Shown here one piece after another: positions 36,950-37,483 of a stretch of 37,483 nucleotides of DNA. The DNA is taken from the NCBI GenBank assembly GCA_023254495.1, contig JALRLK010000113.1, positions 1 through 37,483 on the forward strand, in the 5' to 3' direction. The translations under genes and the position numbers were made by a program. A model generated the notes under the pieces. It saw nothing but the letters and a program-made list of their open reading frames with translations, did not search any database and was not told the DNA's origin. Each line of letters begins with the position of its first letter. Position 1 is the stretch's first letter. This DNA comes from Marivivens sp. (GTDB lineage: Bacteria > Pseudomonadota > Alphaproteobacteria > Rhodobacterales > Rhodobacteraceae).

Positions 36950-37324
36950 ATGGCTAAATCGAAAGGCAAAGTGACCCAGGTCATCGGCGCCGTCGTGGAC
37001 GTGCGGTTCGAGGGCGAGCTGCCCGCGATCCTTAACGCGCTGACCACCGACAACAACGGCAAGAAGCTGGTGCTCGAAGTCGCTCAGCACCTTGGCGAAG
37101 ACACCGTTCGCACCATCGCTATGGACGCGTCCGAAGGCCTCGTCCGCGGTCAGGAAGTGCTCGACACCGGCGCTCCGATCTCGGTCCCGGTCGGCGACGC
37201 GACCCTCGGCCGTATCCTCAACGTCGTCGGCGAGCCGGTGGACGAAAAGGGCCCGGTGAAGGCGAAGGAAACCCGCGCCATCCACCAGCCGGCCCCCGAG
37301 TTTGCCGATCAGGCGACCGAGTCG
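36950..37324 (+). pseudogene. atpD: F1F0 ATP synthase subunit beta, first 125 codons only; native sequence stops at 37324 (ORF runs to 37417 in foreign sequence)
   Basis: [31 protein letters not shown]...[39 protein letters not shown], then [31 protein letters not shown], which does not resemble the expected beta-subunit continuation with the P-loop. Confidence 0.9.
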
Positions 37325-37483
37325 CCAAAGCGCTGGCCGTTTGTGGCGCCATCCGCGAAATGGAGCGCGCACGGACCGGTGTTGCGCAGAGCGGCGGTGA
37401 CGGTAATCGTTTTGTAATGGCCCTGGGGCACGAGGAGCCGGCAGCGCTCGCCGCGTGGGCGCGGCCGTAGCGGCGGGCCATGT
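37319..37483 (-). mobile_element. Internal fragment of an IS630-family-like transposase, frameshifted
   Basis: Minus strand gives MARRYGRA (frame starting 37481) and, in another frame, [46 protein letters not shown]; together they resemble the central region of IS630-type DDE transposases. Confidence 0.78.

Follow-up and report, generated by a model that had tools for sequence, protein, structure and literature searches.

The window analysed here is the entire contig C57 (37483 bp), which ends inside an operon for ATP synthase: the last reading frame begins as atpD and then runs into a sequence resembling an insertion sequence (IS). Is this apparent fusion carried by the organism, or was it created during sequencing or assembly? 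We estimate a probability of about 0.93 that the end of the contig is an artefact of sequencing or assembly and that the apparent atpD–IS fusion is not biology. The assembly holding the contig comprises 2.39 Mb in 201 contigs, with a completeness of 84.5% and a contamination of 3.5%. Among named relatives, those closest in atpD are metagenome-assembled genomes of Rhodobacteraceae, including Marivivens sp., the nearest being L006/L026. On the basis of its fragmentation, completeness and contamination, we infer that the genome studied here is a metagenome bin too.

The features at the end of the contig are compiled in table 1. The open reading frame 36950–37417 codes for 155 amino acids: 125 residues of AtpD, ending in ...EFADQATES, then 30 unrelated residues (31 in the earlier count) and a stop codon. 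Pfam detects the N-terminal barrel PF02874 alone in this frame (E 7.7e-21), and the P-loop domain was not found in it; the catalytic P-loop and C-terminal domains are absent because the contig leaves the gene. The atpD piece shares 99% DNA identity with the closest relative and 90–92% with three further genomes of the same genus. Alignment of the contig with these four genomes is unbroken up to position 37324, with identities of 98.3, 94.1, 96.4 and 92.8% over 1.2–1.9 kb. Past this position the contig diverges abruptly from the AtpD of its relatives, in which the gene runs on as E-I/V-L-V-T-G-I-K and is followed by atpC. The description given in the earlier note, of an atpD that is normal through 125 codons, then continues as unrelated sequence and lacks the catalytic P-loop region, is thus borne out.

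Table 1. Features at the end of contig C57.
Feature	Position	Strand	Evidence
atpH (F1 delta/OSCP), intact, upstream	33924..34490	+	PF00213, E 2.8e-49
atpA (F1 alpha), intact, upstream	34490..36028	+	PF00006 2.1e-80, PF00306 5e-44, PF02874 8.9e-21
atpG (F1 gamma), intact, upstream	36059..36931	+	PF00231, E 5.8e-97
atpD (F1 ATP synthase beta), codons 1–125, normal	36950..37324	+	PF02874 and alignments to four same-genus genomes
Join: AGTCG, 5-bp identity common to atpD and IS630 sequence	37320..37324	.	alignments to L006–L009 and five IS630 copies
IS630-family transposase, interior fragment, 1-base deletion near 37455–37459, cut by contig end	37325..37483	-	tblastn, blastn, alignment

The integrity of atpD was compared among 80 related loci by reading each atpD frame onward from its match. 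The gene is full-length in 78 of them and still open at the contig end in the other two; none of the 80 is truncated by a stop codon. Three other metagenome assemblies (L044, L045 and L062) have a contig that ends no more than about 100 bp upstream of atpD. Since contig ends fall near atpD in these loci, the operon atpH–atpA–atpG–atpD may often break assemblies.

The final 159 bp of the contig, hereafter the tail, resemble the interior of an IS630 transposase when read on the minus strand. Comparison with annotated IS630 transposases gave 77.5% identity over 40 amino acids by tblastn (E 3e-12) and 86.7% over 173 bp by blastn (E 2e-50), the best blastn match being a copy on a plasmid of Methylobacterium phyllosphaerae (about 87% identical). 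As judged by sequence similarity, the match is far beyond chance, and the proposed assignment of the tail to the middle of an IS630-type transposase holds. Pfam gave no match for the tail at its default cut-off and, in a search at E ≤ 10, only a weak match to DDE_3 (E 0.014, below its cut-off), obtained with a piece that is short and frameshifted; the IS630 call is therefore based on tblastn and blastn. The reading frame is broken because one base is missing relative to other IS copies; this deletion, like the overlap discussed below, is defined relative to known copies and not to the actual donor copy. By alignment to L024, the fragment is confined to the part that follows the DET motif, and the other parts of the domain lie off the contig. 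The GC content of the tail is 0.70, against 0.63, and GC content alone is no marker of a foreign tail. Another IS630 copy lies on the plasmid pMPPM05 of Methylorubrum populi (L127, 1501–1658), where the PLSDB table lists no gene; it carries a 15-base deletion relative to the tail.

The junction maps to about position 499 of a 1011-bp IS query, inside the element, and alignment of the IS copies revealed no intact IS end there. There is no TA at the AGTCG junction, and only this one end lies on the contig. These results agree with the earlier note, which saw neither an IS terminus nor a TA target at the join. The overlap of 7 bp (CGAGTCG, 37318–37324) suggested previously is reduced to the 5 bp AGTCG against known IS copies. 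At 37318–37319 the contig has CG, the bases of atpD, and all five aligned IS copies read GT, so these two positions belong to atpD. AGTCG itself is present in the two closest IS copies and sits within a 13-bp stretch with 11 matches. When atpD and IS sequences were joined at random, an overlap of at least 5 bp was obtained in 0.85% of trials. Since so long an overlap should arise in only some 0.9% of joins made at random, random ligation alone is not the best account of the junction; template switching is another possible origin, as is a real join mediated by microhomology.

The tail appears foreign both to the genome and to its lineage. The 1011-bp IS query matches only the tail of this contig and no other IS parts were found in the assembly, which gives no support to the idea that this genome carries the IS in repeated copies. 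Among 397 genomes of the family Rhodobacteraceae no long match to the tail was found, and the short or weak matches outside its own genome reach at most 46.4 bits. No full-length match was found among 385 genomes of the class (best 100 bits, 84% over 97 bp), and no relatives of the tail were found among viral contigs and phages.

The remaining part of atpD and atpC, which the closest relative holds in order, were sought in the assembly with a 1525-bp query from that relative. This gave only a chance match of 25 bp, and PF02823 (epsilon) was not found in the assembly. Neither the other three quarters of atpD nor atpC, for which the earlier note had proposed such a search, was therefore found in this incomplete assembly. 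Matches to PF00006 on contigs C200 and C64 were considered as lost pieces of atpD and rejected: they correspond to Rho, adjoining mnmE. The two rho–mnmE loci, L004/L132 (G000:C200) and L005/L131 (G000:C64), are about 90% identical and occur in one assembly. This pair suggests a mixture with a close relative and is consistent with the contamination estimate of 3.5%.

A second odd contig end was observed on C64 (4527 bp), which contains mnmE together with a portion of rho and shares about 90% identity with C200. Its last stretch of about 124 bp (4404–4527) has no counterpart in C200 and a GC content of 0.40–0.46, against about 0.6. The join lies at CCTACAA, inside rho, to which an unrelated, AT-richer end is fused; this end has a weak FapA-like match (E 0.09) and no secure identity. 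The presence of two contigs with unrelated ends of about one read length is more readily explained by an artefact of the library or assembly than by two biological events. The two contigs are individual observations and give no rate of chimeric ends; across 18 contig starts, GC profiles did not point to foreign ends as a clear general pattern.

A chimeric contig end, favoured by the earlier note over a real rearrangement, is supported by the location of the tail, which reaches the last base of the contig (37483 of 37483 bp) in a fragmented assembly, by the lack of a long match in the family, by its absence from all other contigs and by the absence of the remaining atpD and of atpC. The contig would have been assembled correctly through atpH–atpA–atpG–atpD up to 37324, and the last 159 bp would come from another DNA molecule bearing IS630, probably that of a different organism present in the sample. 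At the 5-bp match a chimeric read or library fragment would have arisen, by ligation or by polymerase template switching, and added about one read length to the contig. The remaining atpD and atpC would lie on sequence left unassembled or unbinned. We infer that the two sequences were joined in the library or in a read, not inside a cell, and that DNA from a mixed community was sampled. Published accounts deal with chimeric 454 reads due to adaptor ligation (PMC3411829) and with chimeric molecules produced by multiple displacement amplification (PMC6436528).

A genuine cellular rearrangement, in which microhomology joined a segment bearing IS630 into atpD and broke the gene in this strain or in a minor part of the population, is in our view very improbable. 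IS elements cause rearrangements, and the 5-bp identity at the junction is of a length seen by chance in only about 0.9% of random joins. However, no IS end lies at the junction and the IS piece is itself frameshifted; the IS is absent elsewhere in the assembly and has no long match in genomes of the family; no other contig carries atpC or the displaced end of atpD; and every relative examined is intact, save the two cut by contig edges. In addition, the microhomology cut-offs deduced from verification in a Salmonella study were 8–12 bp or more (PMC3411829). We hardly expect a natural population to carry an atpD cut short by a microhomology-mediated join with an IS630 fragment, catalytic beta and epsilon having been lost or relocated.

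A misjoin in the assembly graph at a common repeat, with no chimeric read, is most unlikely: contigs often end in repeats or conserved genes, and in the three assemblies mentioned above they end just upstream of atpD, but the exact overlap of 5 bp is far below the k-mer lengths of assemblers, so that the graph could not join atpD and the IS without a spanning read. For this reason, a chimeric read or fragment spanning the join is the likeliest source of the contig end.

The relevance of a chimeric contig end is limited to annotation. The 155-residue fusion protein should stay out of databases, and neither ATP synthase beta nor epsilon should be counted as missing from the genome. In drafts of this kind, the outermost sequence of a contig, over about one read length, can be foreign and deserves checking.

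Compared with known F1 ATP synthase beta genes, the first 125 codons of this atpD are normal and follow atpH, atpA and atpG in the usual operon order; unlike a complete atpD, this copy has no catalytic P-loop or C-terminal domain. The tail matches the transposase interior of the IS630 family (DDE transposase, PF13358), as found in plasmid copies of Methylobacteriaceae, with about 87% DNA identity. Unlike IS630 elements, it is an interior fragment only, without termini and with one base deleted, and is neither an element nor an insertion. Judged from the assembled sequence alone, the end of the contig resembles the chimeras known from libraries and amplification, having likewise an abrupt join between unrelated sequences, a very short overlap, a position at the contig end and a length of about one read.
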